From the NCBI RefSeq assembly GCF_031458235.1, contig NZ_JAVDYB010000001.1:3803001-3867000 (forward strand): DNA of 64,000 bases, given 5' to 3'. How positions within the stretch are numbered: position 1 is the stretch's first letter; each line of letters begins with the position of its first letter. Under the pieces are notes generated by a model that saw only the letters and a list, made by a program, of their open reading frames with translations, searched no databases and was not told the origin of the DNA. A program made the position numbers and the translations under genes. Positions 2,488 to 23,949 of the stretch are shown in pieces. This stretch comes from Catenuloplanes atrovinosus (GTDB lineage: Bacteria; Actinomycetota; Actinomycetes; Mycobacteriales; Micromonosporaceae).

Positions 2488-3420
2488 GTGGGGTCTTCAC
2501 TGCTCGACATCGTCCGCCGGTCGCCCGCGCCGGCCACCGCCGTCGCCGTGTTCGGCCCGGACGAGGTGTTCACCCGGGTGGTGCACGGCACCGCGGACCT
2601 GACCACCGGCCGGCCGGTCACCGACGAGGACTGGTGGGACCTGGCCAGCCTGACGAAGGTGCTGGTCACGTTGCCGGAGGTGCGCGATCTGGTGCCGAAC
2701 CCGGACCTGCCGCTGGAAGACCTCTGGCCCGAGGCACGGGGGTACGCCGTCGGCCGCGCCACGGTTCGCGCGCTGCTCACGCACACGGCCGGCCTGCCCG
2801 CCACCGTCCCGTTCTACCGCACCGCGACCGGCCGCGACGCGGTGCTGCGCGCGGTGCTCGCCCAGCCGCTCGGCCCGCCCGAGGAGGTCTACAGCGATCT
2901 CGGTTTCATGCTGCTCGGCCGGATGGTGGAGGCGCTGTCCGGCCGCACGCTGGACGCGCTCGCCCGCGACCGTACCGGCCTGCGCTTCGGCGCACCGCCG
3001 TCGTCCTCGGTCGCGACCGAACTCGACCCGTGGCGCGGCCGGCTGATCGTCGGCGAGGTGCACGACGAGAACGCCGCCGCGATGGGCGGCGTGGCCGGTC
3101 AGGCCGGCGCGTTCGGCACGCTGTCGCTGGTCACGGCCGCGGCACAGACCTGGCTGCGCGGCCCGGCGATCACCCCGGCCCGGCCGGGCGCCACGTTCGG
3201 CCTGGGCTGGATGGTCACGCCGCGCCCGGGTCTCGGGTCCACCCGGCTGCCCGGCTTCGGCCACACCGGCTACGTCGGCAACCGCCTCTGGCTCTCACCG
3301 TCCCGCGGCCTGGGCGTGCTCATCCTCGCCAACCGCGTCCACCCCACCCGCGAGGGCACCGCGGAGCCGTACGTCCGCTGGTGCTCCTCGCTCTTCGCAC
3401 ACCTCGAATCGCGGATCTAG
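2488..3420 (+). CDS. serine hydrolase, beta-lactamase class C family
   Basis: 310 residues, GTG start, no signal peptide, so probably cytoplasmic. The SxxK nucleophile motif is SLTK at residues 54-57; the second catalytic motif is YSD rather than the usual YxN; HTG in GFGHTGYVG stands for the KTG box. The family comprises esterases, DD-peptidases and beta-lactamases sharing this fold, and sequence alone does not assign a substrate. Absence of export makes a cell-wall role unlikely. Its 3' end overlaps the 3' end of the convergent flippase-like gene by 4 bp. Confidence 0.8.
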   Translation: MGSSLLDIVRRSPAPATAVAVFGPDEVFTRVVHGTADLTTGRPVTDEDWWDLASLTKVLVTLPEVRDLVPNPDLPLEDLWPEARGYAVGRATVRALLTHTAGLPATVPFYRTATGRDAVLRAVLAQPLGPPEEVYSDLGFMLLGRMVEALSGRTLDALARDRTGLRFGAPPSSSVATELDPWRGRLIVGEVHDENAAAMGGVAGQAGAFGTLSLVTAAAQTWLRGPAITPARPGATFGLGWMVTPRPGLGSTRLPGFGHTGYVGNRLWLSPSRGLGVLILANRVHPTREGTAEPYVRWCSSLFAHLESRI

Positions 3421-4448
3421 GCAGCCGCGGGCTCCAGGGTCTTGATCGTCCGGGTGGTGACCACGTCGGCCGGGATGAGCGGCTCCACCGGCACGGCGAT
3501 CGGGACCGGGGCCGGGGTGCGGCGGCGGGCCAGCAGGCGCAGGGCCAGGACCGCGACGCCGGGGAGGCTGGCGACCAGGGCGAACAGGCCGTAGACGACC
3601 GCGACCGTGAGGCCCTGGGTGGCGCTGAAGCCGGCGGTGGCGAACGCCCAGGCGAGGAAGCCCTCGCGCGGGCCGAAGCCGCCGATGCTGACCGGCAGCA
3701 CCATCACCAGCAGCGCGGTGACCAGCAGCGGGAGCAGCGTCCGCGCGGGGGCGTACGACCCGGCGGCGCGCGCGGCCAGCAGGAACGTGGCCAGGTGCCC
3801 GCCGAGGACGATCGCGGAGGCGAGCAGGATGCCGGGCAGCGTGCGGCGGGCGAGCAGGCCACGGCGGATGTCGCCGGTGGCGGTGCGCCAGGCGCGGCGC
3901 AGCCGGCCCGGGTTGCGGCGCAGCTTGATCACGGCGAACGCGCAGGCCAGCACGATGCCGGTGGCGACGGCCGCGAGCACGGCCGGGGAGACCGAGACGA
4001 CGTCCGCGACCGCCAGCGCCAGGCCGGGGTGCGCGACGAGCACGACCGCGCCGACCGCGAAGAGCATGATCTGACCGGCGGTACGTTCCAGCACCACCAC
4101 CCGGACGCCACGCCCGACGTCGCCGGTGTCACGGCCGTTGCGCACCGCGCGGTCGACGTCGCCGAGCAGCCCGCCGGGGAGCGTGGCGTTGAGGAACAGC
4201 GCCTGGTAGTAGTCGGCGATCGCGCCGCGCAGCGGGAGCCGGATGCCGAGGGCGCGCGCGGTCAGGCACCAGCGCCAGGCGCTGAAGACCGTGGTGAGCA
4301 GGCCGATGCCGGCCGCCGCGAGCAGCGTGGGCCAGGTCAGCACGCGCAGGCCGTCGAGGAACGCGACCGAGCCGAGCCGCCAGAACAGCAGCGCGAGGAT
4401 CGCGGCGCCCGCGACCGGCTTCGCCCAGGAGAGGAACTTCTGCATCAT
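3417..4448 (-). CDS. flippase-like membrane protein (LPG synthase TM domain, UPF0104)
   Basis: 343 residues, mostly hydrophobic, with about eight membrane segments. The GGLLGDVDRAVR motif and the late SIGGFGPREGFLAWAF motif are characteristic of the lysylphosphatidylglycerol synthetase membrane-domain family (AglD/MprF-flippase-like). There is no aminoacyl-transferase domain, so a lipid or lipid-linked sugar translocation role is more likely than lysyl transfer (inference). The ATG overlaps the stop of the upstream methyltransferase gene by 4 bp (ATGA), so the two are translationally coupled. Confidence 0.85.
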   Translation of the reverse strand: MMQKFLSWAKPVAGAAILALLFWRLGSVAFLDGLRVLTWPTLLAAAGIGLLTTVFSAWRWCLTARALGIRLPLRGAIADYYQALFLNATLPGGLLGDVDRAVRNGRDTGDVGRGVRVVVLERTAGQIMLFAVGAVVLVAHPGLALAVADVVSVSPAVLAAVATGIVLACAFAVIKLRRNPGRLRRAWRTATGDIRRGLLARRTLPGILLASAIVLGGHLATFLLAARAAGSYAPARTLLPLLVTALLVMVLPVSIGGFGPREGFLAWAFATAGFSATQGLTVAVVYGLFALVASLPGVAVLALRLLARRRTPAPVPIAVPVEPLIPADVVTTRTIKTLEPAAA

Positions 4449-5284
4449 CGGGACACCTCGGTCGGCAGCGCCAGCAGGTCGGTGTGGTGCACGGTGACGG
4501 TCAGGTCACCGGCCGCGGCCCGCGCGAGGCGGCGGCTGAGGTAGTCGTCGATCTCGCGCTCGACGCCGGTGTCGCGGCCCAGCCGGGTGGAGGCTGCGGT
4601 GACCCAGCCGCGCAGCCACTCCGCGGTCAGCTCGCGCCGGTCCGGGCCGAGCCGCCACGGGCTGGGCGCCGCGTGCACCGTGACGCCGCGCGCGCGGAAC
4701 GCGTCCGCCAGCGCGTCGGCCGCGTCCGGGCCGAGCAGCGTGCGGCCGGCCACGTGGTGCCGCAGGTGGGCGTTGAACGCGCTGTTCAGCGGCCCGTCCA
4801 GCGGTTCCGCCGGGTCGAGCTCGGCGCGCCCGGTGACGGAGAGGGTGAGCAGCGCGGGCGTGCCGGACTCGGCGCAGGCGGCGGCGAGCCGGGCCGCGTC
4901 GCCCGCGTCCAGCAGGTCCAGCAGCGCGGACGCGGTGACCAGCGAGACGCCGTCCAGGTCCGCCGCGGTCAGCTTGGTGATGTCGCCGCGCCGGGTCTCC
5001 ACGGTGACCGCGGCGCCGGTGCCGATCATGCTGGCCGCCGCCACGTCGAGCAGGTCCGGGTCCCGGTCCTGCATGATCCAGTGCTGGCGGCCGTCCAGCA
5101 GCGGTGCCAGCCAGCGGGCCATCGAGCCGGTGCCGCAGCCGAGGTCCAGGATCACCGGGTCGGGGACGTCCGCCAGGCGGCCGCGGAGCAGGTCCACCAG
5201 CTCCGTCGCGCGGGCCGCGGCGTCCGCGGGCTCACGCAGGTCCAGCCACGTCGAGGCGTACCTCGGCGCTTCGGCGACTCTCAT
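4445..5284 (-). CDS. class I SAM-dependent methyltransferase
   Basis: 279 residues. The start chosen is ATG at 5284, preceded by GGAGG six bases away; an upstream TTG at 5335 would add 17 residues but has no ribosome site. Motif I is VILDLGCGTGSMARWL, followed by an acidic residue-containing strand (QDRDPDLL). It forms a coupled pair with the flippase-like gene downstream and faces the CDP-alcohol phosphatidyltransferase gene across about 200 bp. The methyl acceptor is unknown; context suggests a lipid- or glycan-linked small molecule. Confidence 0.85.
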   Translation of the reverse strand: MRVAEAPRYASTWLDLREPADAAARATELVDLLRGRLADVPDPVILDLGCGTGSMARWLAPLLDGRQHWIMQDRDPDLLDVAAASMIGTGAAVTVETRRGDITKLTAADLDGVSLVTASALLDLLDAGDAARLAAACAESGTPALLTLSVTGRAELDPAEPLDGPLNSAFNAHLRHHVAGRTLLGPDAADALADAFRARGVTVHAAPSPWRLGPDRRELTAEWLRGWVTAASTRLGRDTGVEREIDDYLSRRLARAAAGDLTVTVHHTDLLALPTEVSR

Positions 5285-5481
5285 CCCGGCCTCCACTGAC
5301 GGTAACGATGGGTGCTCCGCCTCCCGGCCGGTCAAGATCTCCGGCGGTCGACGTCACCTGGAGGTACGAGCATTTCGCGGATCCGGTTCGATGATCCGGT
5401 GAACCGTCCGCCGCGAGTTTCCGTGTTGACAGAACGCGACCGCGGCGAGCCGCCGTGGTCACCCGGCATGGAGGATGCACA

Positions 5482-6186
5482 GTGACTGCAGGCGTATGGA
5501 CCGGCACGGTCAGTCCCCTTCGCGGCCCCGCGGCCGGGCTGCTCGCGCAGTTCGCCGTGCTCGGCGGCCTCACCGCCGCGGTCGGTCTCGGCGCGGGCGG
5601 CTGGGTGACCGGCACGGTCTACGCGCTCGCGCTCTGCGCCCTGCTCGCCCGCGCCATGCACCGCTCCGGGCTGCGCGTGTTCGGCCCGGCCAACGCGGTC
5701 ACGCTGTCCCGCGCCACCCTGGTCGGCGGCGTCACCGCGCTGGTCACGGAGGCCCGTACCCCGGTCGCCGTGCTGGTCGTGCTCGCCTCCGTCGCGCTGG
5801 TGCTGGACGGCGTGGACGGCGTCGTCGCCCGCCGCACCGGCAGCACCTCCCCGTTCGGCGCCCGCTTCGACGGCGAGGTCGACGCGTTCCTGATCCTGGT
5901 CCTGAGCGTGTACGTGTCGTACCACCTGGGCTGGTGGGTGCTGGCGATCGGCGCGTTCCGGTACGCGTTCGTGGCGGCCGGCTGGCACTTCACCTGGCTG
6001 CGGGGCGACCTGCCGGTGCGCTACTCCCGCAAGACCGTGGCCGCGGTGCAGGGCGTGGTGCTGGTCACGGCCGCGTCCGGCCTGCTCCCGGGCCTGGTCG
6101 CCGGCGTCCTGGTGGCCGCCGCGCTGGCCGCGCTAATCTGGTCGTTCGGCCGCGACATCGCCTACCTGCACCGCACGTACGCCTGA
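5482..6186 (+). CDS. CDP-alcohol phosphatidyltransferase
   Basis: 234 residues from GTG at 5482 (GGAGG eight bases upstream; a GTG at 5455 is possible but weaker). The full family signature D-G-x2-A-R-x8-G-x3-D-x3-D is present (DGVVARR...GARFDGEVD), with all catalytic aspartates, and about six membrane helices. Such enzymes transfer a phosphatidyl (or similar) group from a CDP-activated donor to a small alcohol at the membrane. The headgroup is not predictable. It is divergent from the methyltransferase-flippase pair and followed after 51 bp by an EEP-family phosphodiesterase. Confidence 0.92.
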   Translation: MTAGVWTGTVSPLRGPAAGLLAQFAVLGGLTAAVGLGAGGWVTGTVYALALCALLARAMHRSGLRVFGPANAVTLSRATLVGGVTALVTEARTPVAVLVVLASVALVLDGVDGVVARRTGSTSPFGARFDGEVDAFLILVLSVYVSYHLGWWVLAIGAFRYAFVAAGWHFTWLRGDLPVRYSRKTVAAVQGVVLVTAASGLLPGLVAGVLVAAALAALIWSFGRDIAYLHRTYA

Positions 6187-6237
6187 TCCGCCCGGCCGCG
6201 GCGACCACGCCGGCCCCCGGCCTGGCATGATCCACGC

Positions 6238-7158
6238 GTGCGCGTGTGGAGGACGATCGTCGCGGTGACCGCGGTGCTGCTGGCCGTGGCGATCGGGCTG
6301 CACGGCCTGGTGCCGAACGCGGGGCCGCGGCTGGGCAGCCTGATCGAGACGTTCCTGCCCTGGCTGGGCCTGGGCGTCCCGGTGGTGCTGGTGCTCGCGC
6401 TGACCGCCCGGTCACGGATCGTCGTGCTCACCGCCGTGCTGCCGCTGGCCGCGTGGCTGATCGTCTGCGGCGGCAAGCTGCTGCCCGGCCGGGACGCCCC
6501 GCACGACCTGACCGTGGTGCAGCACAACCTCAGTGACGAGAACCCCGATCCCGCCGGTACGGCACGCGCGCTGATGGCCGCGCGGCCCGACCTGATCGGC
6601 GTCGAGGAACTGCTGCCGGAGAACGTCGCGGCCTACCAGGCGGTGTTCGCCGCCGAGTACCCGTACCGGGCCGTGCACGGCACCGTCGGCCTGTGGTCCC
6701 GGTTCCCGATCGCCGAGTCGCGCCTGGTCGACCTGCGCCCGTCCGACGTGGACGATCCCGAGTGGAACCGCGGCCTGCGCGCGGTCGTCGGCACGCCGCG
6801 CGGCGACGTCGCGGTCTACGTCGCGCACCTGCCGTCGCTGCGGCTCGGCGCCGGCGGCTTCGGCAGCGAGCGGCGCGACGAGAGCGCCACCTTCCTCGGC
6901 AACGCGCTGGCACGCGAGCCGCTCGACCGGATCGTCCTGATCGGCGACCTGAACGGCACCACCGACGACCGCGGCCTGCGCCCGATCCGCGCCGTGGTCA
7001 CCACCACGGGCCGGGGCTTCGCGTTCTCCTGGCCGGCCGGCACGCCGATCGCCCGGATCGACCAGATCATGGCGCGCTCGCTCACCGTCACCCGCATCTG
7101 GACGCTGGACCGCACCGGCAGCGACCACCTCCCGATCGCGGCGCGCCTCAGGTTCTGA
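6238..7158 (+). CDS. membrane-anchored endonuclease/exonuclease/phosphatase-family protein
   Basis: 306 residues from GTG. Three N-terminal membrane helices (about residues 5-25, 35-56, 60-78) precede a catalytic EEP domain: QHNLSDE, the metal-binding glutamate in IGVEELLPE, YVAHLPS, GDLNGTTDD and the terminal SDHLPI with the catalytic histidine. All key EEP residues are present. Family members cleave phosphodiesters in DNA, phospholipids or nucleotides; the membrane anchor places the active site at the envelope, and the neighbour makes a phospholipid-type substrate plausible (inference). Confidence 0.85.
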   Translation: MRVWRTIVAVTAVLLAVAIGLHGLVPNAGPRLGSLIETFLPWLGLGVPVVLVLALTARSRIVVLTAVLPLAAWLIVCGGKLLPGRDAPHDLTVVQHNLSDENPDPAGTARALMAARPDLIGVEELLPENVAAYQAVFAAEYPYRAVHGTVGLWSRFPIAESRLVDLRPSDVDDPEWNRGLRAVVGTPRGDVAVYVAHLPSLRLGAGGFGSERRDESATFLGNALAREPLDRIVLIGDLNGTTDDRGLRPIRAVVTTTGRGFAFSWPAGTPIARIDQIMARSLTVTRIWTLDRTGSDHLPIAARLRF

Positions 7159-7207
7159 GCCCGGGCGCACGATCGCCGCCACCGTGGACAGAGGTCGCGC
7201 CGGGCGC

Positions 7208-8011
7208 TCACGTCCTGGCGGCCAGCCACTCCAGCGCCGGGACCGCGGTCCAGGGCAGCACGGAGATGTGCCCCTCCCCCGGGACGATCCACACCTCGGC
7301 GCCGGGGACCAGGTCACGCGCGTGCGCGGCCGGCACCACCCGGTCGTCCGCGCCGTGCGCCAGCAGCACCGGCGCCGCGATCGCGGCCGGGTCGAAGCCC
7401 CACGGTGTGACGTACGCCAGGTCGTCGTCGATCAGCGGCCCCGGGCCGTTCGCCACCGCGGGCGCGACCACCTCGCCGAACCAGGACCACTCCCCGTCCA
7501 GCGCCGCCCAGTCCGCGGCCGTGAAGTCCGGCGGCGGGGCGCTCACCGCCTCGTGGGCCTCCTTGGCGGTACGGCCGGCGACGGCGGCGCGCAGCCCGGC
7601 CTCCGTGACCGGCCCCATGCCGTCGAACCAGGTCTCGTCGCGGTACGGCGCCGGCCCGGAGATCGACGCCGCCGCGGTCACCCGGCCCGGCAGCAGCGCG
7701 GCGCAGGCCAGCGCGTGCGGTCCGCCACCGGAGTGACCGAGCACCGCGAACCGGTCCACGCCCAGCGCGTCCGCGACCGTGGCCGCGTCCCGGGCCGCGG
7801 ACGCGACATCGCGCCCCGGCACCGGCGTGGAACCGCCGTAGCCGGGCCGGTCGTAGCCGATCAGCCGCACGCCCAGCCGGTTCGCCGCCGCGTACAGCGG
7901 GCCCGGTGGCGTGCCCACGTTCGGCGTCCCGTGATGCCACATGACCACGCGCGAGCCCGTGCCTCGATCGTGGACCCGCAGCGTCCGCCCGTCCCCCGTG
8001 ATGACGTCCAT
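7208..8011 (-). CDS. alpha/beta-hydrolase
   Basis: 267 residues from ATG at 8011, preceded by a G-rich ribosome site. Oxyanion segment WHHGTPN, nucleophile elbow GHSGGGP, acid in HGADDRVVP and catalytic histidine in GEGHISV are all visible. Close relatives are annotated simply as alpha/beta-fold hydrolases; an epoxide- or ester-hydrolase role cannot be decided. It is convergent with the EEP gene (about 50 bp apart) and divergent from the GPP34 gene. Confidence 0.88.
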   Translation of the reverse strand: MDVITGDGRTLRVHDRGTGSRVVMWHHGTPNVGTPPGPLYAAANRLGVRLIGYDRPGYGGSTPVPGRDVASAARDAATVADALGVDRFAVLGHSGGGPHALACAALLPGRVTAAASISGPAPYRDETWFDGMGPVTEAGLRAAVAGRTAKEAHEAVSAPPPDFTAADWAALDGEWSWFGEVVAPAVANGPGPLIDDDLAYVTPWGFDPAAIAAPVLLAHGADDRVVPAAHARDLVPGAEVWIVPGEGHISVLPWTAVPALEWLAART

Positions 8012-8164
8012 GCCCCCATTCAAGTGCAAAGATCGACCGGACCGGTAGCGCCGGCGCGCCCGAAGATCCGTCCCGCGGACGAGCGCGTGCGGCTCGCGGT
8101 GGACGCGGTGGGTCCGGCGCACGGCGGATGTGAGCGTTGGCGCTGGTCGCATAGCCTTTCGGAC

Positions 8165-8836
8165 ATGACGATCTCGCTGGCTGAGGAACTGGTTCTGCTC
8201 GCGTACAACGACGAGGGCAGCGCGTACGGGATGAGTACGTGGCTCGACTACGGCGTGGCCGGCGCGCACCTGGTGGAGCTGGCGCTGGCGGAGCGGATCG
8301 AGCTGCGCGACGGCCGGGTCACCGTGATCGACGCGACGCCGACCGGGTCGCCGCCGGTCGACGCGGCGCTGGCCACGATCGCGGCGGACGACAAGCCGCG
8401 CAAGGCGCAGGACCTGATCTACCGGCTGTCCAAGCGGGCGCGCACGCCGGTGCTGGACGCGCTGGTGGAGCGCGGCATCCTGGAACGTCGGGCGGAGAAG
8501 GTGCTGCGCATCATCCCGGTCACCCGGTACCCGTCCCCGGACGGCGGCGAGCCCGCCGTGGAGACCGAGCGCCGGCGGCTGATGCGCGCGGCGGTCGACG
8601 GCACCGACACCACGCCGGACACGCGGACGCTGGCGCTGTGCACCCTGGTCCACGCGCTCGACTGGGAGCGCCGGGTCTTCCCGGACCTGCCGAAGCGGGA
8701 GACGCGGAAGCGCCTCAAGGAGCTCGGCGAGCAGCACTGGGCCGGCGTCGCGGTGGGCAGGCTGGTCAAGGAGCTGGCCGCACTCATCGCGTCCACGGTC
8801 GCGGCGATCACCGTGGCCGCTGCCGCCGGCGCCTGA
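8165..8836 (+). CDS. GOLPH3/VPS74 (GPP34) family protein
   Basis: 223 residues, ATG start. The N-terminus (LAEELVLLAYNDEG) and the repeated hydrophobic-basic helices are typical of actinobacterial GPP34-domain proteins, related to eukaryotic GOLPH3, which binds phosphatidylinositol-4-phosphate. Bacterial members have no established function. A paralogue lies at 14553-15206. No ribosome site is obvious; TAGCCT about 8 bp upstream could be the -10 of a leaderless transcript. Confidence 0.85.
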   Translation: MTISLAEELVLLAYNDEGSAYGMSTWLDYGVAGAHLVELALAERIELRDGRVTVIDATPTGSPPVDAALATIAADDKPRKAQDLIYRLSKRARTPVLDALVERGILERRAEKVLRIIPVTRYPSPDGGEPAVETERRRLMRAAVDGTDTTPDTRTLALCTLVHALDWERRVFPDLPKRETRKRLKELGEQHWAGVAVGRLVKELAALIASTVAAITVAAAAGA

Positions 8837-8944
8837 TCCGCCCACCGGAGCCGCGGTGAGCAGGTAAAATGCGGTAGACGCGCTCCCTCTCGGCCGCCGT
8901 TTCGCGCGGCAGCGCCCCGATCGTCCGACGTAGAGGGGGAGATC

Positions 8945-9526
8945 ATGTCACGTCGTGCCGCACCCGTCGTCGCGGGCGCGCTGTCGGTCCTCGTCGCCGC
9001 CGCGCCCGCGCCCGCCACGGCGGGCGCGTTCTGGGACAGCTTCGAGGAGCCGCCGGCGCCGGCCGGCGGCTTCCACACGTACCGTCAGGGTGCGGTGGCC
9101 GGCCCGTGGACCGTGATCGGCGGTGACGTCGACCTGATCGGCGGCGGTTTCTGGGCGGCGCAGCACGAGGCGCAGTCGATGGATCTGAACGGTACGGCCG
9201 CCGGCGCGATCCGCGCGACGTTCCGCACCACGCTGGCCGCCACCTACCGCGTCGGCTTCCGGCTGGCCGGGAACCCGTCGGGCGGCCCGGCCGTCAAGAC
9301 CGGCGTGGCCGGCATCGACGGCCAGGAGCGGCTGGAGCTCGCGTTCGACACCACCGGCAGGACCACGACCACCATGGGGTACGCGGAGCAGTGGTTCACG
9401 TTCCGCGCCACGCGCGCGGAGACGTCGGTGGAGTTCGTCAGCACCACGCCGGGCGCGCACGGCCCGGTCCTCGACAACGTCCTGATCCAGCCCTGCACCA
9501 TCACCGACTGCACGGCCGGACAGTAA
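8945..9526 (+). CDS. secreted DUF642/choice-of-anchor-like protein
   Basis: 193 residues; ATG preceded by GAGGGGGAG. A signal peptide (residues 1-27, cut near ATAGA) precedes one beta-rich galactose-binding-like domain: FWDSFEEP, WTVIGGDVDLIG and a C-terminal PVLDNVLI, the usual ending of DUF642 domains. Two cysteines near the end (PCTITDC) may form a disulfide. Family members bind cell-wall polysaccharides; here that is inference. It stands alone and ends in a hairpin. Confidence 0.8.
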   Translation: MSRRAAPVVAGALSVLVAAAPAPATAGAFWDSFEEPPAPAGGFHTYRQGAVAGPWTVIGGDVDLIGGGFWAAQHEAQSMDLNGTAAGAIRATFRTTLAATYRVGFRLAGNPSGGPAVKTGVAGIDGQERLELAFDTTGRTTTTMGYAEQWFTFRATRAETSVEFVSTTPGAHGPVLDNVLIQPCTITDCTAGQ

Positions 9527-9538
9527 CGGCCGGCCATC

Positions 9539-9566
9539 CACTCAGCCGGCGTTCGCGGACTGAGTG
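9539..9566 (+). terminator. hairpin after the DUF642-like gene
   Basis: CACTCAG and CTGAGTG form a 7-bp stem around a 14-base loop that itself contains CCG/CGG. It begins 13 bases after the stop codon. There is no T run, as usual for high-GC actinobacteria. Factor-independent termination is likely but unproven. Confidence 0.45.
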
Positions 9567-9726
9567 CTCAGTCAGTTACCTGTCGGTCCGTTGAGGACGG
9601 TCGCGTGCCCCCGGCGCTCGCGAGGCCGGCGTCGCGCACACTCCCTCGGGACGTCGGCCGACGGGGACTCGTTCCACAGAGGATGACGACATGCGACCGG
9701 GATAGGGGCGTGGCGGAAACGGCGAG

Positions 9727-9903
9727 ATTTCCGCAGAGGAACCGAGCCGCGCGGCCGGGGACACGAGCGCGACGGACGCCGCAGGTTCCCGCGGAGAGAC
9801 CGAGCCGCGCGGCCGGGGACACGAGCGCGACGGACGCCGCGTGGGGTTCCCGCGGAGAAACCGAGCCGTGCGCCGGGGACACAAGTGCGGCGGACGCCGC
9901 GGG
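9727..9903. repeat. three tandem copies of a ~58-bp repeat
   Basis: Three imperfect units start near 9727, 9784 and 9841, each carrying an ACCGAGCCG, a GGGGACAC and a GACGGACGCCGC block (the third is the most diverged). Long reading frames cross it on both strands but show only repeat-derived Ala/Arg/Pro-rich translation, so it is not considered coding. The gap 9567-9726 holds nothing else I recognise. Confidence 0.7.
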
Positions 9904-9911
9904 GTTTCCGT

Positions 9912-10015
9912 GACCAGCGGCGGAACCGGCTCCGATGCGGCGGCGGAGCGGCGGCGGAGCCGCCGCGAGGTTGGCCCGCGGGAGCATGCGGGCCGCGCCA
10001 CGCCGGAAGCGGGAA
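9912..10015 (+). repeat. dispersed intergenic repeat, copy A
   Basis: 104 bp matching 31643-31746 at about 95 of 104 positions without gaps by eye. It contains GCGGCGGAGCCGCCGC, an internal inverted repeat, and ends in ACGCCGGAAGCGGGAA. Shorter inverted relatives sit at 15208 and 36832. It lies between the triple tandem repeat and the 3' end of the GTP cyclohydrolase fusion gene. Confidence 0.75.
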
Positions 10016-10048
10016 GAGCACGGGGGTCTTCCCGCTTCGGCGGGCCGG

Positions 10049-11347
10049 TCAGGTGGTGATGTCCCAGCCGAGGAGGAGGGCGTCGCCCGCGGTGTAGGCG
10101 GTGCGGTTCGTCAGGCTGAGGCCGGTGGGGAGGCGGGTGTCGCCGGGGGTTTCGGTGGTGGCGGAGATGGCGACGATCAGGCGGTCGGCGAGGCCGGCGT
10201 CGAGCAGCGACGTGATCAGCCGGGCGCCGCCCTCGACCAGCAGGGTCTGGACGCCGCTGCGGCGCAGTTCGGCGAGGACCGTGGGGAGGTCGACGCCGTG
10301 CGGGCCGGCGGAGACCTCGCGCAGGCCGACGCCGGCGGCCTGGATCGCGTCGGCGCGGGCGGCGTCGGCGGCCTTGGTGGTGAAGACCGTGGTGGCGGCG
10401 TCGCCGCCGAAGACGCGCGCGGTGAGCGGCAGGTCGAGGTCGCCGTCCAGGACCACGCGGAGCGGGTGGGCGCCGGGGACCAGCTCGACCGTGAGGGACG
10501 GGTCGGTGCGGCGGACGGTACCGGCGCCGACCATGACCGCGTCGGTGGCGGCGCGCAGCGCGTGCTCCTCGGCCGTGGGGATGCCGGGGTCGCGCTGGAT
10601 GCGGCCGTCCAGGGTCTGGGTGACGCGGACCATCACATACGGGCGGTCCGGGCGCGGGCGGATCCGGCCGATCAGGCCGCGGACGTCGATGCCGGCCTCC
10701 GGCACGGTGACCGGCTCCGCGCCGATCGGGGCGACGTGGCCCATCCGCGCGGCCTTCGTGGTGAGGTAGGCGGCGTTGCGCGCGTGGGCCGCGGTCTGCA
10801 GGCCGACCATGGTCTGCACGGTGAGGCCGCCGGCGCGCAGGCCCTCGACCTTGTCCGGGTTGTTCGACATCAGGTTGACCGACTCGACGCCGATCGCGCG
10901 CAGCACGTGCGCGGACTCGCCGTAAGTGCGCGCGTCCGCGGGCAGGCCGAGGCGCAGGTTCGCGTCCAGCGTGTCCGCGCCGTTGTCCTGCTCGACGTAC
11001 GCGCGGAGCTTGTTGACCAGGCCGATCCCGCGACCCTCGTGGCCGGTGATGTAGAGGACCACGCCACGCCCGGCGGCGGCCACGGTGCGCATCGCGGTGC
11101 GCAGCTGCACGCCGCAGTCGCAGCGCAGCGAGCCGAGCGCGTCGCCGGTGAGGCACTCCGAGTGGAGGCGGGTGAGCACGGGCTCACTGCCGGTGACGTC
11201 GCCGCGGATCAGCGCGAGCAGCGTGTGCCCGGCCGCGGTCTCGAAGACCCGGGTCCGGAACTCCCCGTACGGCGTGGGAATCACCACGGAACAGACCTCG
11301 ACCGGCGCGGGCGCCGGATCGCCCGTTCGCTGTGGCGGAAGAATCAT
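10049..11347 (-). CDS. GTP cyclohydrolase II fused to RibD-type reductase domain
   Basis: 432 residues from ATG at 11347 (AAAGG upstream; a GTG at 11377 would add 10 residues). Residues 15-205 are GTP cyclohydrolase II: zinc cysteines C65, C76 and C78 (SECLTG...RCDCG), the catalytic HEGRGIGL loop and the conserved tyrosine Y117 in RAYVEQD. Residues 235-432 are a RibD C-terminal/DHFR-like reductase: TQTLDGRI, VGAGTVRRTDPSL, LLVEGGA. GTP would be opened to the diaminopyrimidine phosphate and possibly reduced in the ribosyl side chain by the same chain. There is no DHBP synthase or deaminase domain and no other riboflavin gene nearby, so a pathway other than housekeeping flavin synthesis is likely (inference). 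It is divergent from the dehydrogenase-PTPS operon. Confidence 0.88.
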   Translation of the reverse strand: MILPPQRTGDPAPAPVEVCSVVIPTPYGEFRTRVFETAAGHTLLALIRGDVTGSEPVLTRLHSECLTGDALGSLRCDCGVQLRTAMRTVAAAGRGVVLYITGHEGRGIGLVNKLRAYVEQDNGADTLDANLRLGLPADARTYGESAHVLRAIGVESVNLMSNNPDKVEGLRAGGLTVQTMVGLQTAAHARNAAYLTTKAARMGHVAPIGAEPVTVPEAGIDVRGLIGRIRPRPDRPYVMVRVTQTLDGRIQRDPGIPTAEEHALRAATDAVMVGAGTVRRTDPSLTVELVPGAHPLRVVLDGDLDLPLTARVFGGDAATTVFTTKAADAARADAIQAAGVGLREVSAGPHGVDLPTVLAELRRSGVQTLLVEGGARLITSLLDAGLADRLIVAISATTETPGDTRLPTGLSLTNRTAYTAGDALLLGWDITT

Positions 11348-11457
11348 GGCACCTTTGCTACCACGTGGATCAGCCACTGCCCACCGCCAGACCGATAAAT
11401 GCCCACGCCGGGGCTATATGGCTATATGTCCATTAAAGAGATCTTTGGGGGAAGTCC

Positions 11458-12405
11458 GTGAAAGCGCGCGCCGTCCGGTTCCTGGCACCGCGCTCGGTCG
11501 CGGTCGAGGACGTGCACCTCGACGACCCGACCGGCGATGAGCTGCTGGTACGCACCGTCTACTCCGGAATCAGCGCGGGCACGGAGCTGCTGGCCTACCG
11601 CGGCGAACTGGACGCGGAGACGCCGCTCGACGAGACGCTCGCCGCCTTCGAGGGTGGCTTTCATTACCCGTTCGGGTACGGCTACAGCGCGGTCGGCCGC
11701 ACCCCCGACGGCACCGCGGTCTTCGCGTTCCACCCGCACCAGTCCCACTTCACCGCGCCCGCCGCCGACGTGCTGCCGCTGCCGGACGGCCTGGATCCGC
11801 GGCTGGCCACCATGTTCCCGCTCGTCGAGACCGCGTTGCAGCTCAGCCTCGACGCGGGCCCGGTGCTGGGCGAGACCGTGCTGGTCACCGGCCTCGGCGC
11901 GGTGGGGCTGCTGACCTCGCTGCTACTCACCCGGGCCGGCGCGGAGGTGGTGGCGCTGGAGCCGCAGCAGTGGCGGCGCTCGCTGGCCGGCTCGGTCGGC
12001 ATCACCGCGCGGCACCCGGACGAGTCGGACGCGCGGGCGGCGCTGCTGGTGGAGACGTCTGGTGCCCCGCGCGCGCTCGCGGACGGGCTCGGGCGGCTGC
12101 GTCACGAGGGCACCGCGCTGGTCGGCTCCTGGTACGGCACCAAGCCGGTCTCCCTGCCGCTCGGCGGCGACTTCCACCGCCGCCGCCTCACCATCCGCTC
12201 CAGCCAGGTGTCCACGATCCCGGCCGCGCAGCAGGACCGGTGGACCCGCGACCGCCGCCGCGCCACCGCGCTGGCCCTGATGCCGGGGTTGCCGCTGGCC
12301 GCGCTCGCCACCACGGAGTTCGCGTTCGAGAACGCGCCCGCCGCCTACGAGGCACTCGACCGGGGCGCACCCGGAGTCCTGCACGCGGCGCTGCGATATG
12401 AATGA
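11458..12405 (+). CDS. medium-chain dehydrogenase/reductase family oxidoreductase
   Basis: 315 residues from GTG, GGGGGA just upstream. N-terminal GroES-like fold (YSGISAGTELLAYRG) and a Rossmann NAD(P) site (VLVTGLGAVGLLTSLLL, about 140-156) are visible; the catalytic-zinc cysteine and the four structural-zinc cysteines of classical alcohol dehydrogenases are absent. It is first in a coupled operon with the PTPS-like gene (8-bp overlap). The A+T-rich leader carries two TATATG blocks, the likely promoter zone shared with the divergent cyclohydrolase fusion. Confidence 0.8.
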   Translation: MKARAVRFLAPRSVAVEDVHLDDPTGDELLVRTVYSGISAGTELLAYRGELDAETPLDETLAAFEGGFHYPFGYGYSAVGRTPDGTAVFAFHPHQSHFTAPAADVLPLPDGLDPRLATMFPLVETALQLSLDAGPVLGETVLVTGLGAVGLLTSLLLTRAGAEVVALEPQQWRRSLAGSVGITARHPDESDARAALLVETSGAPRALADGLGRLRHEGTALVGSWYGTKPVSLPLGGDFHRRRLTIRSSQVSTIPAAQQDRWTRDRRRATALALMPGLPLAALATTEFAFENAPAAYEALDRGAPGVLHAALRYE

Positions 12406-12796
12406 GGGCATGTACGAAGTCGGCACCTCCCGAGAAGTCCGCGCTTACCACACGATGCCCGGAATGCCCCCGCCCGAGGGCGAGCGGCACTCCCACGACT
12501 ACCGCCTCGACATCCGCGTCACCCGCCCCCGGCTGGACGCGCGCGACATGGTCGTCGACCTCGACGTGCTCAACGACGCGCTGCGCGGCGTGACCGACCG
12601 GCTGCACGAGGCCGACCTGGACGAGATCGTCGGCAAGGAGACCACCAAGGACGCGGTCACCGTGGAGGTCTTCTCCCAGTGGCTGCACGCGGTGCTGGCG
12701 AGCGCGGTCGGCCCGGTCGCGGGCGCCACACTGCACGTGCGCGTCTGGGAGGACCCGCGGATGTACGGCGGATACGAGGGCCCGCTCGGTGACTGA
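12398..12796 (+). CDS. 6-pyruvoyl-tetrahydropterin synthase/QueD-like protein without cysteine
   Basis: 132 residues. The zinc histidines are placed as in the PTPS family (H18 and the HSH at 31-33 in RHSHDYRL), the DLDVLNDAL helix is typical, and the pterin-binding glutamate is in RVWEDP. The family's catalytic cysteine, normally a few residues before the HGH motif, is missing, and there is no cysteine anywhere in the chain, so PTPS or QueD chemistry by the known mechanism is not possible. It overlaps the gene before it by 8 bp and the glycosyltransferase after it by 8 bp. I recall a crystallised PTPS homologue in Streptomyces coelicolor near a GTP cyclohydrolase II paralogue; homology of the whole group should be tested. 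Confidence 0.82.
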   Translation: MNEGMYEVGTSREVRAYHTMPGMPPPEGERHSHDYRLDIRVTRPRLDARDMVVDLDVLNDALRGVTDRLHEADLDEIVGKETTKDAVTVEVFSQWLHAVLASAVGPVAGATLHVRVWEDPRMYGGYEGPLGD

Positions 12797-13883
12797 CCTC
12801 GCCGTCTCGCTGCTCACGCTCGGCGACCCGGCCACGATGACCGGTGGTTACCTCTACCACCGGCGCGTCGCCGACCGGGCGCCGCGCTTCGGCGCGCGGG
12901 TCGACTTCGTGTCGCTGCCGTCCTGGCGGTTCCCGCTGCCCGCGCTGGCCGGCGCCACCATGCTGCGCCGGATCCGGGCCGCCGCGCCGGACGTGCTGCT
13001 GGTCGACAGCATCGTGGCCGGGCTGGCCGGGCCGTGGCTGGCCGCGACGCGCGGGCTGCCGCCGATCGCGGCCATCCTGCACCAGCCGCCCGGCGGCATC
13101 GACCACGCCTCCGGCCGTCAGCGCGCGCAGGCCTCGCTGGACCGGGCCTTCTACAAGCGGGTCCGGCGCATGATCGTCGCGTCCGAGGACCTGGCGAACA
13201 CGCTTCGTGGCCAGGGATTCGACCCGGCGCTGCTCGCGGTCGTCCCACCGGGCCGGGACGCCGCCGCCGAGCCGGTCGACCCGCCCGGCGACCTCCGGCA
13301 GGGCCGGCAGGTCGCGATCCTCTCGGTCGGCAACTGGATGGCGCGCAAGGGCCTGCTCGACCTGCTCGAGGCGTTCTCGAATCTGCCGCCCGGCGCCGCC
13401 ACGCTGCACCTGGTCGGCGACGAGACCGTGGAGCCCGGCTACGCCGCGCGCGTCCGGGCCCGGCTGCGACGGCCGGACCTGCGGGACCGCGTCGTCACGC
13501 ACGGCGTCGTCACGCCCGCCGAGGTGGCCGGCTTCTACCGCCGGGCCGACGTCTTCGCGCTGGCGAGCACGCGCGAGCCGTACGGCACGGTCTACGGCGA
13601 GGCGATGGCGGCCGGGCTGCCGGTCGTCGGCTGGAACGCCGGCAACCTCCCGCACCTGGCCACCCACGGCGTGGAGGGGCTGGCGGTGCCGCCCGGCGAC
13701 CGGGTGGCGCTCACCGCCGCGCTGCTGCGCCTGGCCACCGACGACGCGTACCGCACCGCGATGGCCACGGCCGCGCGACGGAAGGCCGACACGTTCCCCA
13801 CCTGGGACGACACGTCCCGCATGCTCTTTACCGAGCTCCGCGCGCTGGCGGAGCACACCACTGTCAGGGAGGCGCAGCCGTGA
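12789..13883 (+). CDS. family 4 glycosyltransferase (GT-B fold)
   Basis: 364 residues from GTG. Two Rossmann-like halves; the C-terminal half has the GT4 donor-binding E-x7-E motif (EPYGTVYGE, near residue 258) and the following GLPVVGWNAGNLP. It would transfer a sugar from a nucleotide donor to an unknown acceptor. It is coupled to the PTPS-like gene (8-bp overlap) and to the HAD gene (GTGA overlap), so the acceptor may be the product of the pterin-like steps (inference). Confidence 0.88.
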   Translation: MTDLAVSLLTLGDPATMTGGYLYHRRVADRAPRFGARVDFVSLPSWRFPLPALAGATMLRRIRAAAPDVLLVDSIVAGLAGPWLAATRGLPPIAAILHQPPGGIDHASGRQRAQASLDRAFYKRVRRMIVASEDLANTLRGQGFDPALLAVVPPGRDAAAEPVDPPGDLRQGRQVAILSVGNWMARKGLLDLLEAFSNLPPGAATLHLVGDETVEPGYAARVRARLRRPDLRDRVVTHGVVTPAEVAGFYRRADVFALASTREPYGTVYGEAMAAGLPVVGWNAGNLPHLATHGVEGLAVPPGDRVALTAALLRLATDDAYRTAMATAARRKADTFPTWDDTSRMLFTELRALAEHTTVREAQP

Positions 13884-14548
13884 CCCGGTTCGAGGCGGTC
13901 CTGTTCGACGCGGGCGATACGCTCATCCGCCTCTCCGGCAGCGGCGAGACGCTGCTGCACCGCGCCGCCGCGGCCCGTGGCGCCGGCCCGCTGGACGCGG
14001 GCGAGGTGAGCGCGGCCTGGCAGCGGGTGCTCGACCGCAGCAGCACCGCCGAGGAACTGGCGAAGGGCCGCGACCTCTCCCCCGACCGGCATCGCCAGGT
14101 GTGGACCGCGCTCTACGCCGAGGCCGGCTGCGACAAGCTGCTGCCCGGCCTCAGCGACGACCTCTACGAGCTCACCGTGGCCGCGGAGTCGTGGGAGGCG
14201 TTCGAGGACACCCTGCCCACGCTGCACGGCCTGCGCGAGCGCGGCCTGCGCGTCGGCGTGGTCAGCGACACCGGCTTCGACCTGCGGCCCGCGCTCGACC
14301 GGCTGGGCATCACGCCGTACGTGGAGACGATCGTCATGTCCTTCGAGCACGGCGCCTGCAAACCGGCCGTCACCTGCTTCACCGCGGCGGCGGACCGGCT
14401 CGGCGTCGCCCCGGACCGCACGCTGATGGTCGGCGACAACCCGCTCACCGACTCCGGCGCGGTCGCGGCCGGCATGTTCGCGTTCCTGCTGCCGAAGCCG
14501 GCCCCCACCGGCCCGCGCGGGCTGCACCACGTGCTGAACCTGGTCTGA
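13880..14548 (+). CDS. HAD-superfamily hydrolase (phosphatase)
   Basis: 222 residues from GTG, with GGGAGG upstream and a 4-bp overlap with the glycosyltransferase. Motif I is LFDAGDT (nucleophile Asp at about 9, acid Asp at about 12 with the second position conserved), motif II VVSDT, motif III the lysine in CKPAV, motif IV GDNPLTD. This is a complete HAD-IA phosphatase. Last gene of the operon; dephosphorylation of a pathway intermediate is the obvious guess. Confidence 0.9.
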   Translation: MTRFEAVLFDAGDTLIRLSGSGETLLHRAAAARGAGPLDAGEVSAAWQRVLDRSSTAEELAKGRDLSPDRHRQVWTALYAEAGCDKLLPGLSDDLYELTVAAESWEAFEDTLPTLHGLRERGLRVGVVSDTGFDLRPALDRLGITPYVETIVMSFEHGACKPAVTCFTAAADRLGVAPDRTLMVGDNPLTDSGAVAAGMFAFLLPKPAPTGPRGLHHVLNLV

Positions 14549-14552
14549 CCTC

Positions 14553-15206
14553 TCAGGTGATCACGGCGGGGAGGACGGCCGCGATCGCCACCGCGGCCTC
14601 CACCGCCGCCAGCGCCCCCGTCACGCCCGCGCCGTCGCGCAGCCGCGCGAGCCGCTCCCGCAACCGCGGCGCGGGCACGTCCGGGAAGATCACGCCGTCC
14701 CAGCCGAGCGCGCCGACCAGCACGCAGAGCGCGGCCGTGCGCGCGTCCACCGGCCCGTCGCCCGCCACGGCCGCGGCCATCCGTCGCCGCGCGCCGGTCT
14801 CCTCGGCCGGTTCGGCGCCGTGCGGGCTCGGGAAGCGCGTCCGGGGGAACACCAGCAGCACCCGGTCCCGTACCCGCTCCAGCACCCCGGCCGCGACCAG
14901 CCGGTCCAGCACCGCGTCGGTCCCGTCCCGGCCCAGCTCCACCACCCACTGCCGGGCCGGCATCGCCTTCTCCGCGGCGAGCCGCTCCAGCGCCGCGTCC
15001 ACCGTGGCCATGCCGGTCGGCGCCCGATCGACCACGGTCACCAGGTCACCGTCGACCGCGACCCGCCCGGCGACCACCAGCTCCAGCAGGCACGCCCCGC
15101 CGACGCCGTGCGGCAGGAACCGCGCGGTGCCGTGCGGCCTTCCGTCGTCGCCGTAGGCGAGCAGCACGATCTCCTCGGCCAGTGAGAGCATCATGATCGA
15201 AATCAT
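14553..15206 (-). CDS. GOLPH3/VPS74 (GPP34) family protein, paralogue 2
   Basis: 217 residues from ATG at 15206 (GGAG seven bases upstream); internal ATGs at 15194 and 15191 fit the paralogue's N-terminus as well. LAEEIVLLAYGDDG matches LAEELVLLAYNDEG of the copy at 8165, and both have the same lysine/arginine-rich mid-section and hydrophobic C-terminus. Membrane phosphoinositide binding is known for eukaryotic GOLPH3 only. It is convergent with the HAD gene with 4 bp between stops; its upstream edge abuts repeat copy C. Confidence 0.82.
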   Translation of the reverse strand: MISIMMLSLAEEIVLLAYGDDGRPHGTARFLPHGVGGACLLELVVAGRVAVDGDLVTVVDRAPTGMATVDAALERLAAEKAMPARQWVVELGRDGTDAVLDRLVAAGVLERVRDRVLLVFPRTRFPSPHGAEPAEETGARRRMAAAVAGDGPVDARTAALCVLVGALGWDGVIFPDVPAPRLRERLARLRDGAGVTGALAAVEAAVAIAAVLPAVIT

Positions 15207-15207
15207 A

Positions 15208-15250
15208 TTCCCGCTCCCGGCGTGGTCGCCTCCCGGTGCTCCCGCGGGCA
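15208..15250 (-). repeat. dispersed intergenic repeat, copy C (short, inverted)
   Basis: TTCCCGCTCCCGGCGTGG and, after a short variable stretch, GCTCCCGCGGGC match the reverse complement of copies A and B. It is located directly upstream of the GPP34 start. The G+C-rich similarity to the copy at 36832 continues at lower identity toward 15300. Confidence 0.6.
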
Positions 15251-15303
15251 CCGGTCGTCGCCGGCGCTCCTCCCTGCCGGTCCCGCGGTGCCCGCGAGCG
15301 GCC

Positions 15304-23343: not shown

Positions 23344-23949
23344 TCAGTCGCTCATGTCGCCGGTGCCGGGAGTGCCGGGGCGCAGGCCGTACCGCAGCAG
23401 CAGCACGCCCTTCGGCGAGGTGAACGGCGGCTCCAGCAGCTCGAGGCTGGACGGCACCGCGCCGCCGTCGAACACCTTCTTGCCGACGCCGAGCACGATC
23501 GGGTGGATCCACAGGTTCAGCCGGTCGAAGAGGCGCTCGCGCAGCAGCGACTGCACCAGGTTCAGGCTGCCGATCACGTGGATCTTCTCGTGCGTGGCCC
23601 GCACCTTCTCCACGGCGCCGGCCAGGTCCGGGCCGAGCAGCGTCGAGCCGGCCCAGTCCAGCGCGGGCGTGCCGCGCGAGGCGACGTACTTCGGGATGCG
23701 GTTGAACAGCCGGGCGATCACGTCGTCGCGCCCCGGCCAGTACGCGGCGAAGATGTCGTAGGTGCGGCGGCCGAGCAGCAGCGCGTCCATCCCCTCCATG
23801 CCGGCGAGCACGCGCTCCCCGGTCGTCTCGTCCGACAGCGGCGCCTGCCACCCGCCGAACGGGAAACCCTCCGGGTCCTCGTGCGGTCCGCCCGGCGCCT
23901 GCCCGACCAGGTCCAGCGTCGCGAACAGGTCGATGTGAACGATGCCCAT
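23344..23949 (-). CDS. dihydrofolate reductase-family protein (RibD C-terminal-like)
   Basis: 201 residues from ATG at 23949 (GAGGAGG five bases upstream). LFATLDLVGQAPGGP at the start, LLLGRRTYDIFAAYW (about 58-72), KIHVIGSLNLVQSLL and the C-terminal HPIVLGVGKKVF are features of the stand-alone DHFR-like/YyaP group, many of unknown function. Likely NADPH-dependent. It is 62 bp from the MarR gene in the same direction and could be co-regulated. Confidence 0.85.
   Translation of the reverse strand: MGIVHIDLFATLDLVGQAPGGPHEDPEGFPFGGWQAPLSDETTGERVLAGMEGMDALLLGRRTYDIFAAYWPGRDDVIARLFNRIPKYVASRGTPALDWAGSTLLGPDLAGAVEKVRATHEKIHVIGSLNLVQSLLRERLFDRLNLWIHPIVLGVGKKVFDGGAVPSSLELLEPPFTSPKGVLLLRYGLRPGTPGTGDMSD

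Follow-up and report, generated by a model that had tools for sequence, protein, structure and literature searches.

Organization of the locus

The window analysed here is a stretch of 64,000 nucleotides (NZ_JAVDYB010000001.1, positions 3,803,001 to 3,867,000) within the 8.9-Mb single-contig genome of Catenuloplanes atrovinosus. It contains a gene cluster (3417-14548) in which a fusion of GTP cyclohydrolase II (GCH2) and RibD_C lies beside genes for a medium-chain dehydrogenase/reductase (MDR), a 6-pyruvoyltetrahydropterin synthase (PTPS)-like protein, a family 4 glycosyltransferase (GT4) and a haloacid dehalogenase (HAD) phosphatase. We propose, with a probability of roughly 0.6, that the cluster encodes a dedicated, widespread and apparently uncharacterised pathway, which branches from the first step of riboflavin synthesis.

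The listed genes (Table 1) had open frames rich in G+C at third codon positions (GC3), and their families matched those given in an earlier note on this DNA. The layout described there, a fusion gene divergent from an overlapping MDR/PTPS/GT4/HAD operon, was confirmed by frames, GC3 and Pfam, the MDR match being below cut-off. The fusion gene starts 80 bases from the MDR gene on the opposite strand, and within the operon the overlaps are 8 bases (MDR/PTPS), 8 bases (PTPS/GT4) and 4 bases (GT4/HAD). Genes for a flippase-like protein, a methyltransferase and a CDP-alcohol phosphatidyltransferase (CDP transferase) are grouped at 3417-6186. All eight pathway-type genes occurred in the same order in each of four further genomes read from the genus. 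Among the matches listed in the scan of named genomes, the closest relative was Catenuloplanes japonicus, with a PTPS-like protein 93% identical.

Table 1. Genes of the cluster and its surroundings (positions in the window)
Feature	Position	Strand	Evidence and remarks
Flippase-like membrane protein (LPG_synthase_TM)	3417..4448	-	Pfam 2.4e-29; below TIGR00374 and MprF cut-offs
Class I S-adenosylmethionine (SAM) methyltransferase	4445..5335	-	Pfam Methyltransf_25 2.2e-10
CDP-alcohol phosphatidyltransferase	5455..6186	+	Intact catalytic motif; L075 homologue in PF01066
Endonuclease/exonuclease/phosphatase (EEP) phosphodiesterase, VanJ-like	6238..7158	+	Pfam Exo_endo_phos 1.3e-15; taken as genus insertion
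Alpha/beta hydrolase (label of the earlier note)	7208..8011	-	Probable insertion
GPP34-domain protein	8165..8836	+	Homologous to GPP34 at 14553-15251; taken as genus insertion
DUF642 protein (label of the earlier note)	8945..9526	+	Taken as genus insertion
GTP cyclohydrolase II–RibD_C fusion	10049..11377	-	Pfam GTP_cyclohydro2 1.8e-57, RibD_C 7.2e-34
MDR oxidoreductase, BchC-like	11458..12405	+	ADH_zinc_N 1.2e-5, below cut-off
PTPS-like protein	12398..12796	+	Pfam PTPS 3.5e-15
GT4 glycosyltransferase	12789..13883	+	Pfam GT4 domains
HAD phosphatase	13880..14548	+	Pfam HAD
GPP34-domain protein, flanking, not pathway	14553..15251	-	PF05719 6.3e-44

Conservation of the gene set

Related loci were found via the PTPS sequence and not via its neighbours. 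In the own genome and 100 relatives, the PTPS-like protein was matched in 16 of 101 genomes, strongly in 9. Stretches of 19-20 kb around the matches revealed this gene set within the genus as well as in a Virgisporangium and the f13 genomes, and other Actinomycetota carried the set with more distant MDR, PTPS and GT4 proteins. A collection of 84,980 named species genomes yielded at least 56 PTPS loci, and an MDR or GT4 gene stood beside the PTPS gene in 48 of the 56 listed. These 48 came from Variovorax, Methylopila, Inquilinus, Kiloniellales, a metagenome-assembled genome (MAG) of Acidobacteria, Saccharothrix, Pseudonocardia, Nocardiopsis, Streptomyces boluensis and others; the eight listed loci without MDR and GT4 were mostly Bacteroidales with canonical PTPS residues. 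The gene set thereby spans Actinomycetota, Pseudomonadota and an Acidobacteria MAG.

When 396 genomes were drawn evenly from the phylum, window-type PTPS was matched in 61 and the second type, v2, in 84 (E <= 0.001, many of them weak). From deep actinobacterial families in this draw, eight of the nine strong matches outside the own genome were read on stretches of 6-20 kb. GT4, PTPS, MDR and the GCH2-RibD_C fusion were present in seven of these eight loci, and the remaining one (L190) had RibD_C without a detected GCH2. No CDP transferase, methyltransferase or flippase gene was found within the 6-20 kb of any of them.

The pooled set comprised 76 loci with PTPS-like proteins lacking the QueD-type catalytic triad (see below), of which 62 measured at least 17 kb and are referred to as long. 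The duplicates L066, L069 and L115 were removed before counting. Four f32 loci (L200-L203), fetched with a control in mind, carried RibD_C, MDR, PTPS and GT4 and were moved to the cluster set. The strict score, placed at half of the median reached by the cluster loci, was thus derived from the same loci to which it was applied. At this score the long loci contained MDR (62 of 62), GT4 (61), methyltransferase (48), RibD_C (46), CDP transferase (44), GCH2 (29), flippase (28), sulfatase-like protein (21), creatininase (14), YceI (14) and HAD (12). Among 22 control pieces (20 taken from other parts of the genome and two from the window), no cluster family reached the strict score (0/22), and at E 1e-5 only MDR (3/22) and RibD_C (1/22) were matched. 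The 12 other PTPS loci showed neither MDR (0/12) nor GT4 (0/12) at the strict score, and one of them, L204, had GCH2 and RibD_C. Ten of the 12 have the full triad; L103 and L106 lack the Cys, keep His71 and Asn75, and were assigned by residues after their lack of cluster genes was known. MDR was present in 74 of all 76 loci, a figure that would become 74/78 if these two were counted as triad-less; both are shorter than 17 kb, leaving the long set unchanged.

Since many of the 76 loci come from close relatives (13 Variovorax, 4 Inquilinus and 5 of the window genus), the counts are not independent. The grouping of the families is not due to chance. The earlier note had named a lack of conserved co-occurrence in other genomes as an outcome that would speak against its proposal; the families were found together over several phyla.

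The GCH2-RibD_C fusion and the riboflavin enzymes

Pfam gave GTP_cyclohydro2 and RibD_C alone for the fusion (10049-11377), and no deaminase domain was found. Its GCH2 half retains the Zn-Cys motif and the catalytic Tyr at the position of E. coli residue 105, and scored 212 bits with the PRK00393 RibA model (cut-off 148). The fusion fell short of the bacterial deaminase-reductase model eubact_ribD (75 bits, 5e-21, cut-off 156) and scored higher with the archaeal reductase model TIGR01508 (110 bits, 1e-31), under its cut-off of 186; the best match to RibD_C among solved structures was the reductase 2azn, ahead of bacterial RibD.

The same genome holds a second GCH2 within a frame of 544 aa, and 1.4 kb away lies a RibD_C protein within a frame of 419 aa; the two are putative RibA and RibD. 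The fusion is thus not the sole supply of riboflavin precursors in this genome. In a tree of 57 GCH2 domains, from which 16 long-branch or degenerate rows of a first tree had been excluded, the window GCH2 was placed among 15 cluster-linked GCH2s that form a clade (support 100/96) separate from the housekeeping rows, and the two GCH2s of the window genome fell into different clades. The presence of a separate RibA-type gene argues that the cluster is not the riboflavin route. The earlier note had named as a refutation that the fusion simply complements riboflavin auxotrophy; a housekeeping role of the fusion is opposed by the second GCH2/RibD_C pair and by the different clades. That the fusion is a spare route replacing RibA and RibD, with all other genes irrelevant, is therefore very improbable: both of its halves do come from riboflavin enzyme families, but it lacks the deaminase domain, the other pair is present, and MDR, PTPS and GT4 are its constant companions.

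Fifteen genomes without GCH2 in the cluster (three f13 and 12 others) were tested for GCH2 elsewhere. A cluster-type GCH2 was found in five, namely the three f13 genomes, an Inquilinus and a Hamadaea (first tree, 94/94), and those of Inquilinus and Hamadaea kept their placement in the second tree (100/100). Five clusters of genus g75, probably Streptomyces, had no linked RibD_C; their genomes and a sixth carried a relative elsewhere, 56-61% identical.

Other sequences related to the two halves were observed. An unlinked RibD_C of the window genome (G000:C1:5436336-5436977, L022) groups with the RibD_Cs of v2 clusters, and a weak RibD_C match (40 bits) lies inside the window at 23437-23838 on the minus strand. 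The relative G001 encodes a third, highly divergent GCH2-like protein (G001:C6:396565-397029, L065, L125), which formed a long branch in the first tree.

Loss of the catalytic tyrosine and creatininase-family neighbours

In E. coli GCH2, Tyr105 decides whether deformylation is completed. SCO6655, the GCH2 paralogue of S. coelicolor, is reported to have Met in place of this Tyr and to release the formyl-pyrimidine. Among 35 non-duplicate cluster loci with GCH2, the Tyr was replaced by His, Leu or Met in 12, and a creatininase-family gene was found nearby in 11 of these, the only exception being on a 12-kb contig. Loci that keep the Tyr had a creatininase gene in 3 of 23 cases, all three in Pseudomonadota, and in none of the 18 from Actinomycetota (three on stretches shorter than 13 kb). 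The window genome keeps the Tyr and gave no creatininase match. Membership in the creatininase family was confirmed by Pfam in L075, L099 and L102.

According to a published study (PMC9478397), the creatininase-family protein BrbF deformylates the same GTP-derived formyl-pyrimidine in Sinorhizobium and is without sequence similarity to the archaeal ArfB. The presence of a creatininase gene beside a tyrosine-less GCH2 ties the cluster GCH2 to ring-opening chemistry and argues against a bystander role.

A creatininase gene 18-36 kb from the second GCH2 of the f13 genomes was dropped as support, as a scan showed it to be mycofactocin MftE.

The PTPS-like protein and the MDR

The window PTPS-like protein contains no cysteine, in agreement with its earlier description as a cysteine-free member. 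Aligned with solved QueD, which gives the roles and numbers of the triad residues, it has Glu27, His70 and Glu71 in place of Cys27, Asp70 and His71. In the numbering of the window alignment the full triad was present in 10 control rows and in none of the 76 cluster rows. The Zn-type His residues (H18, H31 and H33) are kept in the window protein. Window-type rows have Glu27 and three such His, f32 rows have Ala27 and three His, and v2 rows, which are 26-29% identical to the window protein, have Ala27 and have lost one His. The C-terminal Glu, which anchors the pterin in PTPS, is kept in every PTPS row aligned. Titles of Plasmodium PTPS structures name a Glu (E37) as catalytic, which provides a precedent for Glu replacing Cys.

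The predicted model of the window protein (pLDDT 91) showed a T-fold, with SCO6650 (3d7j) as the nearest solved fold and template modelling (TM) scores of 0.74-0.82 with 3d7j and QueD 4ntk. For the MDR protein the best NCBIfam model was BchC (4.1e-22, below cut-off), and the protein also weakly resembled a model of inosose dehydrogenase (1.9e-7). The MDR may carry out a redox step on the side chain.

Lipid-side genes

The CDP transferase has an intact and conserved motif, DGVDGxxARRTGxxxxFGARFDxExD, in agreement with the family motif DxxDGxxAR...GxxxDxxxD, and its homologue in L075 matched CDP-OH_P_transf (PF01066, 1.3e-14). By sequence its nearest solved relatives are choline/ethanolamine phosphotransferases, via the motif region only. 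Comparison of the window with L041, a locus of the same family, showed low identity in the core proteins MDR (38%), PTPS (25%) and GT4 (29%) and higher identity in HAD (71%), methyltransferase (57%), CDP transferase (53%) and flippase (51%). The same lipid-side genes thus accompany two divergent core triads. HAD was 70-73% identical between clusters that are otherwise divergent.

In the Kiloniellales locus L075 (6814-8208), Pfam showed a fusion protein within the cluster that joins a CDP-alcohol phosphatidyltransferase to YceI, a domain family that binds lipids. One open frame at L085:6780-8201 likewise combines CDP transferase and YceI according to profile hits only. A sulfatase-like protein (weak Pfam match, no NCBIfam match) was seen at L041:5507-7243, L042:13754-15451, L074:5956-7590 and in others, and could be a headgroup transferase. 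Together with the intact motif of the CDP transferase, these features make a lipid-linked product plausible.

Proposed pathway and its alternatives

The core of the cluster is GCH2/RibD_C, MDR, the PTPS-like protein and GT4, while the methyltransferase, CDP transferase, flippase and HAD are accessory. In the proposed pathway, the GCH2 half would open GTP to 2,5-diamino-6-ribosylamino-4-pyrimidinone 5'-phosphate, and the RibD_C half would convert the ribosyl group into a ribityl chain by reduction, leaving out the deamination needed for riboflavin; families of known chemistry and the deformylase pattern point to these two steps. The PTPS-like protein and the BchC-like MDR might then remodel the side chain or carry out the closure to a pterin ring, a step that is weakly inferred. 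GT4 would add a sugar and HAD would remove the phosphate, as their families suggest. In this lineage, the methyltransferase, CDP transferase and flippase-like protein may alter the product, link it to a phospholipid and bring about its export, as conserved linkage suggests. The start of the pathway is fairly well constrained and its middle is inferred. As a doubtful but possible form of the product we consider a glycosylated pterin or ribityl-pyrimidine made from GTP, which would be methylated, attached to phospholipid through the CDP transferase and flipped outward; anchored in the membrane, it would serve as a redox or light-absorbing cofactor and represent a new chemical class.

A number of observations weigh against the proposed pathway. 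Concerning the enzymes, the window GCH2 scored just under the cut-off of TIGR00505 (ribA; 203 against 206 bits), and no assay of any window-type enzyme was found. The cluster GCH2s do not all fall into one clade: those without the tyrosine are united (94/81) and placed with housekeeping RibA (95/81), and by this placement they appear to be a separate recruitment of GCH2 in one event. As tyrosine loss has a single origin, one event underlies the link to creatininase in Actinomycetota. Two cluster creatininases tested were under the MftE, creatininase and ArfB cut-offs and passed no curated model, and the likeness of the cluster creatininases to BrbF, which makes them possible deformylases, is one of family. 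The cluster RibD_Cs do not form one clade either, and one group takes in the unlinked RibD_C of the window genome. Neither GCH2 nor RibD_C was found in 13 of the 76 loci (four on stretches shorter than 17 kb), and the CDP transferase was absent from 27 of 76, some on short contigs; the lipid part therefore seems to be an addition to a smaller core. Of the 15 genomes tested, ten, including four Variovorax, had no cluster-type GCH2 elsewhere, and in these the branch would depend on supply from the common riboflavin enzyme. The second GCH2 of the f13 genomes joined the window clade weakly (91/62, second tree), and these genomes gave only weak RibD_C matches. Finally, gene linkage cannot separate a pterin from a pyrimidine, nor can it prove lipid attachment.

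In the f13 loci L034, L036 and L037, genes for DUF4185, a major facilitator superfamily (MFS) protein and PAP2 were observed upstream of MDR, at the place expected for the fusion.

The loci without CDP transferase, which include all eight deep actinobacterial window-type loci and all four f32 loci (some on short stretches), would also fit a soluble GTP-derived glycoside, with the CDP transferase, methyltransferase and flippase serving a neighbouring lipid trait. This appears rather unlikely, because the same CDP transferase, methyltransferase, flippase and HAD stand beside two divergent MDR-PTPS-GT4 sets, and because the CDP transferase, present in 44 of 62 long loci against none of the 22 controls, occurs in clusters of Actinomycetota, Pseudomonadota and one Acidobacteria MAG. 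The three f13 clusters contain MDR, PTPS, GT4, HAD and CDP transferase but neither GCH2 nor a strict match to RibD_C, and would suit a polyol-lipid glycan cluster, with a sugar or inositol as the substrate of the PTPS-like protein and MDR and with GCH2-RibD_C as a bystander. The likeness of the MDR to the inosose dehydrogenase model and a weak likeness of the L041 CDP transferase to inositol-phosphate synthases point the same way. MDR and GT4 are, however, accompanied by GCH2 or RibD_C in 61 of 76 loci, and both the invariant C-terminal Glu, the pterin anchor of PTPS, and the creatininase beside tyrosine-less GCH2 speak against a polyol substrate, which makes this explanation improbable.

Inserted and flanking genes

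The EEP gene was found in five genomes of this genus and in no other locus read, so that its proposed membership in the pathway was not borne out; its protein scored 255 bits with the VanJ teicoplanin-resistance model, far under the cut-off of 700. The hydrolase gene (7208-8011) occupied the same place in all four other genomes of the genus, and its relatives appeared in seven loci in one reading of the neighbourhoods and in five in another, at no constant place. The GPP34 gene at 8165-8836 was at the same place in three of the four genomes, and the DUF642 gene was present in three of four, being absent from G001. Neither the two GPP34 genes nor DUF642 were found outside the genus among the loci read, which bears out the suggestion that GPP34 and DUF642 are insertions. 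On this distribution we take the EEP, GPP34 and DUF642 genes to be insertions, and the hydrolase gene is a probable one.

Significance and comparison with known systems

A gene set retained over three phyla probably makes something useful. The pathway would account for the retention in S. coelicolor of a PTPS homologue that is catalytically unusual and of solved structure, and of the reported GCH2 paralogue. It predicts the first intermediates precisely, and also which clusters would require a separate deformylase. If the lipid step holds true, the product would belong to a new class, that of pterins or pyrimidines bound to the membrane. A search of the open-access literature returned no paper on this cluster, as judged by titles and the opening of abstracts.

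With QueD and PTPS the window protein shares the T-fold, the Zn-type His residues and the C-terminal Glu, and it differs from them in the substitution of Cys27, Asp70 and His71. The S. coelicolor protein SCO6650 (3d7j) is a member of the v2 type of PTPS-like proteins found in these clusters, matching the L041 protein at E 7.6e-66; this type has lost one Zn-type His, whereas the window protein keeps three. The statement in the earlier note that S. coelicolor has a GCH2 paralogue close to a PTPS homologue thus held for the PTPS homologue, which falls within the cluster family; the GCH2 paralogue would be SCO6655. In contrast to SCO6655 with its reported Met, the window GCH2 keeps the Tyr and is fused to RibD_C.

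The cyanobacterial pterin glycoside pathway consists of GTP cyclohydrolase I (GCH I), PTPS, sepiapterin reductase and a glucosyltransferase. By description, not by sequence, the cluster resembles it in combining a PTPS fold, an oxidoreductase and a glycosyltransferase, but it has GCH2-RibD_C instead of GCH I, an MDR instead of a short-chain dehydrogenase/reductase (SDR), a PTPS-like protein without the triad, and lipid genes. The archaeal start of riboflavin synthesis (GCH III, ArfB and ArfC) and the bacterial BrbF (PMC9478397) share with the clusters the succession of ring opening, a creatininase-family neighbour in a subset and a deaminase-free reductase; the clusters differ from them in using GCH2 rather than GCH III and in coming with PTPS, MDR and GT4.

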